Positions 29,601 to 35,017 of a stretch of DNA of 64,000 bases are shown one piece after another; within the stretch, counting starts at the first letter, position 1, and each line of letters begins with the position of its first letter. The notes under the pieces are model-generated. The model made no database searches. It was given only the letters and a program-made list of their open reading frames with translations, and was not told the DNA's origin. A program made the position numbers and the translations under genes. The stretch spans positions 2,790,001 through 2,854,000 of the forward strand of contig NZ_CP047946.1 in the NCBI RefSeq assembly GCF_014279655.1, given 5' to 3'. This DNA comes from Synechococcus sp. ROS8604 (GTDB taxonomy: Bacteria; Cyanobacteriota; Cyanobacteriia; PCC-6307; Cyanobiaceae).

Positions 29601-31163
29601 ATGCTTGGAGAACTCTGGTCTTTCCAGGGGAGATACCGAACTCTTCATCTCACCTGGTTCGCATTTTTTCTGACCTTTGTCGTCTGGTTCAACCTGGCGC
29701 CCTTGGCTACCACCGTTAAGGCCGATTTGGGCTTAACACTCGGTCAAATCCGTACCGTTGCGATCTGCAACGTGGCTCTCACGATCCCAGCCCGCGTTCT
29801 AATCGGAATGCTTCTCGACAAATATGGGCCTCGACTGACCTATTCCAGCCTGCTGGTTTTTTCGGTCATTCCTTGCCTGATGTTTGCCTCAGCGCAAGAC
29901 TTTAATCAGCTAGTGGTAGCACGCCTACTTTTATCCATCGTGGGTGCAGGCTTTGTGATCGGGATCCGCATGGTTGCCGAATGGTTCCCACCCAAAGAGA
30001 TCGGTCTCGCCGAAGGAATCTATGGCGGTTGGGGCAATTTCGGATCAGCGTTCTCGGCATTAACACTCGTAGGACTGGCAGGGTGGCTCTCGTTCTCAGG
30101 CGGCTTTGAACTTCCCTCAGGGGCCATCCTTAATTGGCGTGGTGCGATTGCTCTAACTGGAATCATTTCTGCCATATACGGTGTTATCTATTACTTCAAC
30201 GTTAGCGATACACCTCCTGGAAAAACTTATCAAAAGCCTGAACGCACAGCAGGCCTGGAAGTCACTTCAATGCGTGATTTCTGGGGATTGCTGGGAATGA
30301 ATGTGCCGTTTGCCGCCATTCTCTGCGTGCTTTGCTGGCGCTTACAAAAGGTTGGTTTTCTGAATGCAGGAACCTATCCATTGGCCTTGGGTGCCGTTCT
30401 GATCTGGTTCATTTTTCAAACCTGGGGAATCATTCGCACCAATCGAGAGCTGATCATGGGTACGAAAACGTATCCCAAAGAAGATCGCTACGAATTCAAG
30501 CAGGTTGCCATTCTTGAACTCACTTACATTGTGAATTTTGGATCAGAGCTGGCCGTCGTTTCAATGTTGCCAACATTTTTCGAAACCACTTTTGATCTCC
30601 CTAAAGCAACCGCTGGCATCCTCGCCTCTTGTTTTGCTTTTGTGAATCTTGTCGCTCGCCCAGCTGGAGGCCTAATCTCCGACAAACTTGGCAGTCGTAA
30701 AAACACGATGGCGTTCTTAACAGGAGGTCTTGGGATTGGTTACCTCGTCATGAGCATGATCAAACCTGGCACATTCAGCGGAACCACAGGGATCATCATC
30801 GCTGTGTTGATCACCATGCTGGCCTCTTTCTTCGTTCAATCAGGAGAAGGAGCTACGTTTGCACTCGTTCCTTTGGTGAAGCGACGCGTCACAGGCCAAG
30901 TTGCTGGTTTGGTTGGTGCGTACGGCAACGTCGGAGCTGTGACTTACCTCACGATTTTTAGTCTGCTACCGATGTGGATGGGTGGGGGTAAGGATCCTTC
31001 TCCAGAAATCATCGCAGCCTCCAATAGTGCTTTCTTCCAAGTTCTGGGGGTCGCTGGCCTAATCGTTGCTTTCTTCTGCTTCTTCTTCCTCAAAGAACCC
31101 AAGGGTTCCTTTGATGACTTGCATGAAGGAGAAACAGCGAGTCCTAATTTCGCCAATAACTGA
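29601..31163 (+). CDS. nrtP: Nitrate/nitrite MFS permease, NrtP/NarK type
   Basis: Major-facilitator transporter for nitrate and nitrite uptake through the inner membrane, the form found in marine cyanobacteria instead of the NrtABCD system. Twelve hydrophobic segments, the NarK-family WFNLAPLA near the first helix, the MFS loop LLDKYGPRLTY, and the nitrate-signature-like EGIYGGWGNFGSAF and VGAYGNVGAVTYL are present. 520 residues include the longer central loop typical of NrtP. It is also called napA in marine Synechococcus. narB follows on the same strand beyond a hairpin. Confidence 0.95.
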   Translation: MLGELWSFQGRYRTLHLTWFAFFLTFVVWFNLAPLATTVKADLGLTLGQIRTVAICNVALTIPARVLIGMLLDKYGPRLTYSSLLVFSVIPCLMFASAQDFNQLVVARLLLSIVGAGFVIGIRMVAEWFPPKEIGLAEGIYGGWGNFGSAFSALTLVGLAGWLSFSGGFELPSGAILNWRGAIALTGIISAIYGVIYYFNVSDTPPGKTYQKPERTAGLEVTSMRDFWGLLGMNVPFAAILCVLCWRLQKVGFLNAGTYPLALGAVLIWFIFQTWGIIRTNRELIMGTKTYPKEDRYEFKQVAILELTYIVNFGSELAVVSMLPTFFETTFDLPKATAGILASCFAFVNLVARPAGGLISDKLGSRKNTMAFLTGGLGIGYLVMSMIKPGTFSGTTGIIIAVLITMLASFFVQSGEGATFALVPLVKRRVTGQVAGLVGAYGNVGAVTYLTIFSLLPMWMGGGKDPSPEIIAASNSAFFQVLGVAGLIVAFFCFFFLKEPKGSFDDLHEGETASPNFANN

Positions 31164-31239: not shown

Positions 31240-33468
31240 ATGGCTGAGCCAATCACAACCATTCGCAGTCAATGTCCTTATTGCGGAGTGGGGTGTGGGT
31301 TGGACTTTCGACCACCGGCAAAAAAGGGGGAAGCCGTCCGTCGAGATGCAGATGGAACCCCAATGTGGACGGCTCGAGGAGATCGGCTGCATCCATCAAG
31401 CCTCGGCCAAGTTTGCATCAAAGGGGCAACAGTCGGAGAAACCCTGTCGAGGGGCCGACTGGATCAACCTCTTGGTCGCAACAGTCTTGATGACGACTTC
31501 CAACCGATCAGCTGGGATGAGGCGCTTGAGCGCATCTCAAGCCAAATCAAAACAAGCCTGAAATCCAAAGGACCAGATGCTATCGCGATGTATGGCTCGG
31601 GACAATTTCATACAGAAGACTATTACTTGGCGCAAAAACTCCTCAAAGGAGCGCTAGGTACTAACAATTTCGACGCTAATTCAAGACTCTGCATGAGTTC
31701 AGCTGTTGCGGGTTACACCCGCAGCTTGGGCTCAGATGGTCCCCCCTGCAGCTACGAAGACTTAGACCATTGCACGGTGGCATTTCTGATCGGAACCAAC
31801 ACCGCTGAATGCCATCCAGTGCTCTTTCAACGATTACTAAAACGAAAAAAAAGACACCCTGGCTCCGTCACCATTGTGGTGGTGGACCCACGCCAAACCG
31901 ATACCGCAAATGCTGCTGACATTCATTTAGCAGTCGCTCCTGGGAGTGACCTTGCCCTCCTTCACGGCATCGCCCACCTGGTGATGCGAGAAAACGGGCA
32001 GGACCCAGCTTTTATCGATGAGTGCACTGACAACTACGACGCCTTTTTTGATGTCGTCGCCCGCTGGACCCCTAGACGTGTGGCCTTATTTTGTGGCATT
32101 CCGGAAAAACGTCTACGGGAAGTCGCCCAGCTCTTTCATCGCCGCGAAAAAGTCTTGAGCCTCTGGTCGATGGGTGTGAATCAACGGCGAGAAGGCACCG
32201 CTGTCGTGGGTGGAATCATCAATCTGCACTTATTGACAGGACAAATTGGCAAAGAAGGAGCCGGACCTTTTTCACTCACAGGACAACCCAACGCCATGGG
32301 AGGAAGAGAAGCAGGCGGCCTCTCCCACCTTCTTCCCGGATATCGTCAAGTTACGAACCCGGAGCATCGTGCTGAAGTCGAGCACTCCTGGGGGTTTTCT
32401 GAGGGGAAAATTGACTCCAAGCCTGGACTAACGGCCTGGCAGCAGGTGGAAGCGATGGAACGGGGAGAACTCGATTTGTGGTGGGTTGCTGCGACGAACC
32501 CTCTGGTGAGCATGCCAGATCTAGAACGCGTCAAAACAGCGATGAAACGCTGCCCATTGGTCGTCGTAAGCGAAGCTTATACAGATTCAGAAACATCCCA
32601 TTACGCCCACCTGCTCCTACCAGCTGCTCAATGGAGCGAAAAAGCTGGAACCATGACCAACTCTGAACGCAGAGTGACGTATTGCCCAGCATTCCGGAAT
32701 CCCCATCGAGAAAGCCGCCCCGATTGGGCAGTGTTTGCCGAAATCGGAAGGCGCCTGGGGTTTGAAGAACAATTCACATACGAATGTGCGGCTGAAGTTT
32801 ATGCAGAATTTACAGCACTAACAAAAAAGAGATTATGTGATGTCTCAGGATTAAGTCATGACGTTCTGACCAAAGAGGGACCCCAACAATGGCCATTTCC
32901 TCAAGACAGTTCACCCTCTCAAGAGTCAAAACGGCTGTACACCAATCACAAGTTTTTAACCACAAATGGACGAGCAAGGTTCTGCAGCGACCAACCACTT
33001 GGTCTTGCAGAACCACCTTGTGACACGTACCCACTGGTCCTCACTATTGGCCGTTATCTCGGACAGTGGCACACGATGACTCGGACAGGACAGGTGGAGC
33101 GCTTAAAAACGATGCACCCAGAACCCCTCTTAGAAATTAACCCTAAAGATGCAGATCAATTTGCGGTGAAGCATGGAGAGCTCGCCGCGGTGAGCTCCCG
33201 AAGGGGCCAACTCACCGCTCGCGTGAAAGTCACAGACAAAATCCGACGGAGCACAGTCTTTCTTCCGATGCATTGGGGATTCACGCAAGCTCAAGCCTGT
33301 GAGGTGAATGCACTGATGCATGAACAGGCCTGCCCCATATCAAAACAACCAGAATTAAAAGCAAGTGCCGTCATCGTTGCTCCAGCAGTTTCTGTCATCA
33401 AACCAATCGAACAGGAAGCTGGGCGCTTGGAAGCGCTTCGAAAATTGATCAACCCAGTATTTCGCTAA
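31240..33468 (+). CDS. narB: Assimilatory nitrate reductase, ferredoxin type
   Basis: Molybdenum bis-MGD enzyme with one 4Fe-4S cluster that reduces nitrate to nitrite using ferredoxin, in the cytoplasm. The cluster ligands are CPYCGVGC near residues 12-19 plus a fourth Cys in GQVCIKG. Molybdopterin-domain segments MYGSGQFHTEDYYL, GTNTAECHP, LTGQPNAMGGREAGGL and the C-terminal GRYLGQWHTMTRTGQ follow. ATG 31240 (MAEPITTIRSQCPYCG) gives 742 residues; a longer open frame starts inside the permease gene and is rejected. The 3' end overlaps narM by 20 bases, tail to tail. Confidence 0.97.
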   Translation: MAEPITTIRSQCPYCGVGCGLDFRPPAKKGEAVRRDADGTPMWTARGDRLHPSSLGQVCIKGATVGETLSRGRLDQPLGRNSLDDDFQPISWDEALERISSQIKTSLKSKGPDAIAMYGSGQFHTEDYYLAQKLLKGALGTNNFDANSRLCMSSAVAGYTRSLGSDGPPCSYEDLDHCTVAFLIGTNTAECHPVLFQRLLKRKKRHPGSVTIVVVDPRQTDTANAADIHLAVAPGSDLALLHGIAHLVMRENGQDPAFIDECTDNYDAFFDVVARWTPRRVALFCGIPEKRLREVAQLFHRREKVLSLWSMGVNQRREGTAVVGGIINLHLLTGQIGKEGAGPFSLTGQPNAMGGREAGGLSHLLPGYRQVTNPEHRAEVEHSWGFSEGKIDSKPGLTAWQQVEAMERGELDLWWVAATNPLVSMPDLERVKTAMKRCPLVVVSEAYTDSETSHYAHLLLPAAQWSEKAGTMTNSERRVTYCPAFRNPHRESRPDWAVFAEIGRRLGFEEQFTYECAAEVYAEFTALTKKRLCDVSGLSHDVLTKEGPQQWPFPQDSSPSQESKRLYTNHKFLTTNGRARFCSDQPLGLAEPPCDTYPLVLTIGRYLGQWHTMTRTGQVERLKTMHPEPLLEINPKDADQFAVKHGELAAVSSRRGQLTARVKVTDKIRRSTVFLPMHWGFTQAQACEVNALMHEQACPISKQPELKASAVIVAPAVSVIKPIEQEAGRLEALRKLINPVFR

Positions 33469-33904
33469 AAGCAGCATCCAAGTTGTGATGATCATGGCCA
33501 GGACGGGCCAATTTACATAAAGCAAAACGCTCTAATTCAAACAAAGAAGCCCATTGGTTCACATTAATAACAATCGATTTTTTCAAGGCAGATTCCTGCA
33601 CAATGCTGGGCAGTTCTCCCAACACTTGCCAAGGTTCATCCACAGCTAAAGGCAGGTCTTTGGCCATCCCCTCAGCCAACAGCCGAGTGAGAAGTCGCAA
33701 GTGCTCACGCAACTCATTCAAAACTGGCAACTCATCAGGCCAATCCACAAGCATTTGGCGCTGTTCCTGAGTGAGCTCCAACCAATGACTCAATTTTAAT
33801 TTGACGCCAATGAGATCTAGCTTCCGGCGTACACAAAGAGGGATGCAACGCCAGTTCCCCACAAAATCCTTCTCAAACCCAAAACAATGGCTGGCTTGAT
33901 CCAT
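33449..33904 (-). CDS. narM: Nitrate reductase-associated protein NarM
   Basis: Matches the cyanobacterial nitrate reductase-associated family, required for NarB activity in Synechococcus elongatus; the mechanism is unclear. The diagnostic part is FGFEKDFVGNWRCIPL followed by VRRKLDLIGVKLKLSHW (residues about 8-41). The C-terminal half is less conserved and ends HDHHNLDAAFSEILG. 151 residues, convergent with narB and overlapping its end by 20 bases, so the transcripts would be mutually antisense at their ends. Confidence 0.88.
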   Translation of the reverse strand: MDQASHCFGFEKDFVGNWRCIPLCVRRKLDLIGVKLKLSHWLELTQEQRQMLVDWPDELPVLNELREHLRLLTRLLAEGMAKDLPLAVDEPWQVLGELPSIVQESALKKSIVINVNQWASLFELERFALCKLARPGHDHHNLDAAFSEILG

Positions 33905-34016
33905 GCATTTAACGACATAAATTGTTCACTTTGAACCATTTGCAGATATCGCCCACCGAAATGGTTTCAATCGCAACTTCGAACTCCTTCATCTAAAGAG
34001 AAGATTTCGAGAGTTT

Positions 34017-34190
34017 ATGGCCTGTTCTGTGCGTTTAGCAATTTCCCTTGGACTTCTTCTTGGCTCTCTTCACGGTTGGTACACAAGCGAAGCCAATGCC
34101 CATGCAGGCTCGCCCTACGGCCTCAAGAATGTGAATTATCCTGGAGCTTTTGCCTCATTTGGTAGCGATTCACTCAACACGTTTCCATAG
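34017..34190 (+). CDS. Small exported protein, unknown
   Basis: 57 residues starting MACSVRLAISLGLLLGSLHG, a plausible signal peptide with possible cleavage after ANA (about residue 28). The remaining 29 residues include SPYGLKNVNYPGAFASFGSD. I do not recognise it. It sits 28 bases before the next small gene and on the same strand as moaC, so it may belong to the same transcript. The final GAFASFGSD faintly resembles the repeated SAFGSR end of the next protein. Confidence 0.55.
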   Translation: MACSVRLAISLGLLLGSLHGWYTSEANAHAGSPYGLKNVNYPGAFASFGSDSLNTFP

Positions 34191-34217
34191 TGAGAGTCTG
34201 AATTCTTCAACTTAGGC

Positions 34218-34538
34218 ATGAACTCTGGGGTCGTCTCTACAGGGAATCGCAGTCAAGTCGCCATAGCAGCGGGCTTTTTAGGAGCCTTCATTGTTGGGTC
34301 GCTTGCAGTACAAATGGTGCGCAGTCAGGCTGGCGTTGCCATCGACGGCAATCAGTCCAGCGCAAAAGTGGAACCAGTGATTGGCTCACCAGCCACCCTC
34401 TGGGCCGAGTTGGGATCCCGCAGCGACGTTGTTGAGCCACTTGCGTCTTCACCAGCCACCAGCTCATCGCCACAAGCCGAGGTGGCTCCAGTTGTGGGCT
34501 CTGAAGCCACACTTTGGTCTGCCTTTGGTAGCCGCTAA
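34218..34538 (+). CDS. Small membrane-anchored protein with an 18-residue repeat
   Basis: 106 residues. A single hydrophobic segment (about 13-34, [20 protein letters not shown]) is followed by an external-type linker and two copies of an 18-residue unit, at 51-68 ([18 protein letters not shown]) and 89-106 ([18 protein letters not shown]), identical at 12 positions; a degenerate third copy may lie at 71-84. The linker is rich in Ser, Ala and Pro. Not recognised. The stop is only 2 bases before the moaC ATG, so co-expression with moaC-moeA is likely. Confidence 0.75.
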
Positions 34539-34540
34539 GC

Positions 34541-35017
34541 ATGGAACAAGGCCTCACTCACCTCAACGCATCCGGTGATGTTCACATGGTTGATGTGGGT
34601 GATCGCCTCCCCACGCGACGCGAAGCAAGCGCTCGGGGGTGCCTTCAAATGCAGCCAACCACACTGGAAGTGATCCGTACCGGCAATACGCCGAAAGGTG
34701 ATCTCCTTGCTGTTGCGCGAGTCGCTGCCATCCAAGCAGCGAAACGGACCTGGGAACTGATTCCCCTTTGCCACCAGTTACCACTCAGTGGCGTGGAAGT
34801 CACGATCGAACCAGATTCCTCATTACCGGGACTAATTCTGTGCTGCCGGTGCCGCACAACACACAACACGGGTGTGGAGATGGAATCCATGACAGCGGTC
34901 TCCATTGGATTGCTGACGCTTTACGACATGCTGAAATCGATTGATCCCGGGATGACCTTGGGACAGGTCGCTCTCACCCACAAGGACGGAGGCCGCAACG
35001 GTGCCTGGTCACGCTGA
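34541..35017 (+). CDS. moaC: Cyclic pyranopterin monophosphate synthase
   Basis: Completes the first molybdopterin step after Moa[19 protein letters not shown] near residue 14, [18 protein letters not shown] near 67 and [20 protein letters not shown] near 110 are all diagnostic; the catalytic Lys is in [10 protein letters not shown]. 158 residues. It starts 2 bases after the repeat-protein stop and overlaps moeA by 17 bases. Confidence 0.97.

Follow-up and report, generated by a model that had tools for sequence, protein, structure and literature searches.

The window, a stretch of 64,000 nucleotides from Synechococcus sp. ROS8604, contains a nitrate cluster with the gene order moaA, mobA, nrtP, narB, narM, A, B, moaC, moeA, moaE, moaD, moaB, cobA, nirA, nitM (FNT) and a cnaT-like gene, in which A and B denote the two small genes described here. 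The nrtP gene (also named napA; 29601-31163, forward strand) encodes a NarK-family MFS nitrate/nitrite permease and matches TIGR00886 with 367.8 bits against a cut-off of 311.7. Family models also match narM (33449-33904, reverse strand; TIGR02664/PF09655), which encodes a nitrate reductase maturation protein and is the divergent neighbor of A, and moaC (34541-35017, forward strand; PF01967/TIGR00581), the downstream neighbor of B, as well as moaE, the FNT gene and the cnaT-like gene. The last label follows the available text of PMC9430850 and was assigned by interpretation from a match to PRK07394. The moaA (from 27737) and mobA (from 28786) genes were placed through their relatives in another locus (L171), while narB (from about 31240, forward strand), moeA, moaD, moaB, cobA and nirA are identified by our own reading of their sequences, supported for narB by molybdoenzyme models below cut-off. 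Gene A (34017-34190) and gene B (34218-34538) are called as open reading frames of 57 and 106 residues on the forward strand; the stop codon of B ends at 34538 and the ATG of moaC begins at 34541, with two bases between them. The divergent starts of narM and A flank a perfect palindrome, GTTCA-CTT-TGAAC (33924-33936), which is a possible operator and does not conform to the NtcA box GTAN8TAC.

Protein B is predicted to be a single-helix membrane protein, in which a short N-terminus precedes the helix (about residues 13-36, GFLGAFVVGSLAVQLVRS-like); a variable linker and two C-terminal motif units follow. The first unit (residues 51-68; 34368-34421, forward strand) aligns with the sole unit of single-unit relatives, and the second (residues 89-106; 34482-34535, forward strand) has a counterpart in 11 of the 23 rows of the B alignment (A1). 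The C-terminal motif has the form PV.AHQATLW..LGER, and occurs as one or two HQATLWxxLG-like copies. In the window, 12 of the 18 positions are identical between the two units. This repeat is not due to chance, since the best pair of 18-mers in 2000 shuffles of the B tail reached only 9 of 18. With single-motif members of about 60-72 residues being common and the motif doubled in 11 of 23 rows, the window repeat is, judged from the alignment, a tandem copy of the motif that defines the B family. Across the alignments, B proteins are 60-113 residues long and carry the helix near the N-terminus. The AlphaFold model of B (mean pLDDT 58) has a confident helix at residues 10-44, a linker of low confidence, and two short helices of low confidence (58-66 and 96-104), one per motif. 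In addition, two genomes hold a second, partial match to B, at G092:C1:429293-429439 (model positions 1-49) and G009:C1:1639729-1639857 (model positions 1-43); each lies in a 92-residue frame with the N-terminus and helix, in which the motif is absent, and the two are perhaps a paralogue.

Protein A is predicted to be a single-helix membrane protein of 53-57 residues, with relatives of 41-58 residues in the alignments. Its core, (M/V)R(L/F)A..LG.LLG..HGW, is followed by a variable tail, and within the helix the G...G...G pattern is invariant and the histidine of LG.LLG..HGW nearly so among the aligned relatives. A single-sequence search (E <= 0.01) detected the gene in 24 of 151 genomes of the family. 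Most relatives start at a point that corresponds to residue 5 of the window protein (GTG at 34029), and the actual start may therefore be other than the ATG at 34017.

Both proteins are under protein-level purifying selection in the genus of the window. The dN/dS ratio of A is 0.18 against both of two congeners (G075 and G034), and that of B is 0.33 and 0.27 against the same two, whereas in the two shifted forward frames of B, compared with one congener, amino-acid change exceeds silent change and 4 and 3 stops occur. On the profile scans made, A and B are covered by no curated family tested. Pfam returned nothing above cut-off for the window proteins, nor for five divergent B proteins and one divergent A protein (best, DUF7525 at E 0.03 for B and a CCD97-like match at E 0.026 for the divergent A), and NCBIfam gave no match above cut-off. 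Neither protein matches PF09655 or TIGR02664 (NarM), and the Pfam and NCBIfam scans recognized no moa, moe or mob domain in them. PHROGs gave nothing above cut-off (best E 0.099), the best PDB sequence for B was an uncharacterized chain at E 0.2 with none for A up to E 1, and the viral contigs and phage records searched held no match. These results bear out the observations of the preliminary description and, in part, its interpretation: it had given the positions, lengths and spacing of the two frames and the 12-of-18 repeat correctly, and had taken the products for small envelope-type proteins outside known families. The lack of conservation that it had named as counting against them was not found, as A and B are conserved and show coding constraint. 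The position ahead of moaC, which it had also stressed, is a local feature: only at 8 of 82 B loci (with one genome represented twice) are moaC and B no more than about 100 bp apart, and we discarded this linkage as the key to the two proteins.

A and B form a pair. A precedes B on the same strand in 75 of the 82 B loci, a count in which some genomes appear twice and which holds partly by construction, the A models having been trained on A genes upstream of B. In eight divergent-B loci outside the family (L157-L162, L164 and L166), found in a search that did not include A, an A-like gene stands just upstream in all eight. Among the seven loci without A, three (L094, L107 and L154, the latter two from one genome) have A overlapping the stop-to-stop frame of B, L146 lies at a contig edge, L181 has a divergent A, L182 is of the second B type described below, and only L123 truly has none.

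At other loci B precedes nrtP, adjoins narM or the cnaT-like gene, or is distant from every one of these genes, and most A-B copies of the family sit within the nitrate cluster. B adjoins nrtP in several distant lineages: the order in genus g145 is nirA-A-B-nrtP-narB, and in G056 and ten Prochlorococcus records B precedes nrtP by 325-351 bp on the same strand. Two g155 genomes carry A-B directly after a sulfite-oxidase-like molybdoenzyme gene (L165, 5161-6954, with a PF00174 match; L167, 6596-8387), with nrtP elsewhere in the genome. In L106, L115, L107 and L094 (genera g24, g31 and g35), a perfect NtcA-type box, GTATCAN4ATAC, precedes A by about 125-129 bp, and a second near-box (GTACCA...GC) lies about 60 bp closer to the gene.

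The distribution of B follows that of NrtP. Within the 151 family genomes, B was detected in 35 with a single sequence (E <= 0.01) and in 38 with the B alignment (A1), while NrtP occurs in 43, NarM in 80 and NitM/FNT in 81. All 38 B genomes carry NrtP. NarM/NarB was rejected as the partner on the strength of the 37 genomes with NarM and without NrtP, all of them without detected B. NitM had to be counted as a real confounder, since the available text of PMC4390861 ties nitM to nrtP; it was likewise set aside, with B in none of the 45 genomes that have NitM and no NrtP and in 6 of the 7 that have NrtP and no NitM. The NarM-containing genomes of six genera (g6, g10, g24, g31, g35 and g45) include both NrtP-positive and NrtP-negative members, and B tracks NrtP in every one of them; g48 departs from this pattern as a seventh genus, in which NrtP is present and B absent. 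Moreover, G101, from the genus of the window (g1), is missing NarM, NrtP and B together and has kept NitM. The genetic link is strong, and the conserved partner of B across genomes is NrtP, not moaC.

The same relation holds in the class, where NrtP occurs in 84 of 223 genomes. Model A3 detected B in 33 genomes (E <= 1.2e-5) and model A5 a second type of B, B-II, in 16 (E <= 3.4e-6), with both cut-offs chosen after the lists had been inspected, and all 44 genomes of their union carry NrtP. Among the genomes searched, B was found only in those with NrtP. The A3 list held 41 genomes at E <= 0.05, of which eight at E 0.0038 or worse were left uncounted (G095, G178, G197, G290, G299, G306, G315 and G317); G306 and G317 were regained by A5 as the second B type. 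The A5 list held 61 genomes at E <= 0.05, and those beyond the 16 were weaker matches to B-I proteins (the type of the window) already counted or were taken as chance. A5 was trained mostly on B-II genes beside nrtP, and is free of this bias only for the new finds G182, G278, G180 and G254, all of which have NrtP. Simple counting gives 8e-17 for 33 of 33, a figure that kinship makes far too small, as related genomes are not independent and the co-occurrence counts carry no tree correction; the weight of the link rests on the repeated separate cases and not on this number. B is not universal among NrtP genomes, being undetected in 5 of 43 in the family and 40 of 84 in the class. A looser search of the five family genomes and of G101 gave only matches at E 0.05 or worse in which the motif end was absent.

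The second type, B-II, was seen without A at all 11 loci inspected and is mostly found beside a shorter NrtP; the type found in the window is referred to as B-I. B-II is within about 1.5 kb of nrtP in eight genomes (G261, G195, G341, G272, G284, G310, G329 and G278), and no narB was found in the 12-14 kb fetched around these loci. G278 and G329 have two nrtP copies each, with B-II beside the short copy and an A-B pair elsewhere in the genome. In G171 (L197, 5591-8731), an nrtP cut short to a 186-residue frame lies beside B-II and narB, and is perhaps a recently broken permease. G306 (L186, 1972-9160) carries two tandem nirA-nrtP units in one cluster and, on a separate contig, a single B-II.

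In an alignment of 90 NrtP proteins, the long NrtP of B-I genomes differs from the shorter NrtP of B-II genomes by extra residues at 170-175, 388-392 and 463-474 and by two at the C-terminus; these stretches were picked by comparing proteins of at least 500 residues with shorter ones, and not by B. More than half of the extra residues are present in 37 of the 40 NrtP rows from B-I genomes, the three exceptions being L158, a borderline case, and the short NrtP of G329 and of G278, each with B-II beside it. None of the 14 rows from B-II genomes carries the extra stretches, and G254 and G180 have an intermediate NrtP (506-507 residues) with B-II away from nrtP. The 36 rows without detected B comprise 14 long and 22 short proteins. 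This match between loops and B type could be explained by shared ancestry as well as by contact, since the B types, like the NrtP types, cluster on a quick NrtP tree.

The hydropathy profile of the window NrtP indicates 14 helices, and the three inner extra stretches fall into periplasm-facing loops if the N-terminus is inside. The positive-inside count places the tails of A outside in 19 of 22 rows with none opposite, and those of B-II in 11 of 11. The bias is weak for B-I, with the N-terminus inside in 12 of 21 rows, 4 opposite and 5 tied. These charge patterns suggest that the tails of A and B lie outside the cytoplasm, weakly so for B-I, and the loops of the long NrtP are predicted to face the same side.

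On balance we favor, with moderate confidence, the reading that A and B are accessory subunits of the NrtP-type (NarK/NNP family) permease, with outer tails and a docking motif, which help its assembly, stability or affinity. The helices of A and B would pack against NrtP in the membrane, an arrangement that the small-residue pattern of A suits, and their C-terminal tails would lie on the outer (periplasmic) face. There, the ATLWxxLG motif of B would serve as a docking peptide on periplasmic loops of NrtP, and docking would aid the assembly, stability or high affinity of the permease, while the tandem motif copy of marine lineages may add docking avidity. We infer the topology of the pair, its physical binding to NrtP and the face on which this occurs, as well as any effect on transport.

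Alternatively, A and B could be regulators that throttle or activate NrtP by nitrogen status and not structural subunits, which we regard as unlikely. KdpF, MgtS and AcrZ are small single-span proteins that modulate one transporter, and proteins of this kind often act in such a way. In addition, among 23 upstream regions, perfect NtcA-type boxes precede A at six loci from other lineages, four of genera g24/g31/g35 (a level reached by 1-6% of shuffles) and two of g155 (8.5-10%). Against this, in the window and its closest kin the NtcA-like sites ahead of A are no better than those of shuffled sequence. The available text of PMC4390861, citing a study of Nostoc punctiforme, states that NrtP activity is not post-translationally regulated, which speaks against a regulator and also counts against an accessory role.

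The pair adjoins narM at many marine Synechococcus loci and moaC or moaA at some, and it follows the sulfite-oxidase-like gene in the two g155 genomes. Such neighbors would suit membrane docking proteins for the nitrate reductase NarB (with NarM) or for molybdenum-cofactor enzymes. We consider this role distinctly improbable, as detected B is missing from all 37 NarM genomes without NrtP and B-II adjoins nrtP at loci with no narB in the fetched stretch. Moreover, NarB is cytoplasmic, whereas the tails of A and B are predicted to lie on the other side.

That most copies of the family sit inside the nitrate cluster would also be expected if A-B merely hitch-hiked with a mobile nrtP-type cluster and had no functional tie to NrtP. 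In 14 class genomes, however, A-B lies on a different contig from nrtP or more than 100 kb away, and all 14 have NrtP, which speaks against one travelling cluster. Three of these are certain, with distances on one contig of about 175 kb (G303), about 210 kb (G278) and 2.7 Mb (G352); the other eleven rest on contig breaks in fragmented assemblies, where another contig is no proof of distance. Conservation across several families and the purifying selection in the genus of the window further argue against hitch-hiking, to which we give little credence.

The N-terminus of A resembles a signal peptide with an AHA site in the window sequence, and the preliminary description had called A an exported peptide. 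By inspection of two alignments (A2 and A4), this site is restricted to window-like rows and no signal-peptidase site is conserved across the relatives, so a membrane-anchored microprotein appears to be the better reading of A. It is hardly credible that A is secreted as a peptide signal, with B as its partner in the membrane, since the AHA site occurs only in window-like sequences and the conserved part of A is the helix (G..LG..HG), the tail being variable.

If A and B are accessory subunits of NrtP, the two B types permit an extension that we put forward tentatively. NrtP of cyanobacteria may be a multi-part permease and not a lone one, in two co-evolved versions: a long-loop permease with the A and B-I pair and a short-loop permease with B-II alone, the ATLW tail of B being docked on periplasmic loops. 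Bacteria would in that case have invented the NRT2-NAR2 principle for themselves, and marine Synechococcus and nitrate-using Prochlorococcus would draw on it for scarce nitrate. NrtP imports nitrate in both of these groups, whose cells rank among the most numerous phototrophs of seas poor in nitrate. Affinity measurements made on NrtP alone would then have missed a component, as would annotations of nitrate use and transfers of NrtP to other hosts.

The literature on the picocyanobacterial nitrate cluster, in its available text, names nrtP/napA, narB, nirA, nitM/focA, moaA, cynS and cnaT (sources include PMC9430850 and PMC4390861) and treats NrtP as a single protein. Small proteins like A or B are not mentioned in the available portions of PMC6370341, PMC4390861, PMC4620153, PMC6603209 and PMC9430850, and neither 'nitrate' nor 'NrtP' appears in those of PMC5126843, on cyanobacterial small proteins. 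The literature matches listed, a scope outside which most subscription journals fall, contain no description of A or B. From their sequences and distribution, the two are probably transporter accessory microproteins of an unnamed family.

Among known systems, NrtP/NapA (TIGR00886) is the putative partner, and A and B are separate from the permease itself. KdpF, MgtS and AcrZ resemble A and B by description, being single-span proteins of about 30-60 residues that modulate one transporter, but A-B is a pair, one member of which has a C-terminal motif that is duplicated in some lineages. A closer likeness is offered by NAR2 (NRT3) and NRT2 of plants and green algae, where a membrane-anchored partner accompanies a nitrate permease that belongs to the same broad MFS family; correspondingly, all 44 B genomes of the class sample have the NNP/NarK-family permease NrtP. 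NAR2 differs in being larger, its large extracellular domain preceding a membrane anchor at the C-terminus, whereas A and B have the helix near the N-terminus and short tails, and neither matched the curated NAR2 family in the Pfam scans. According to the available text of PMC4620153 and PMC4232926, NAR2 is needed by some NRT2 permeases and not by all. The 40 NrtP genomes without detected B fit such a split, or reflect missed, diverged copies. If the proposal is true, it would suggest that NarK-type nitrate permeases gained their partner subunits independently in bacteria and in plants. The nearest parallel to A-B is NAR2-NRT2, and we lean toward the view that the pair works like plant NAR2 without matching it in sequence.
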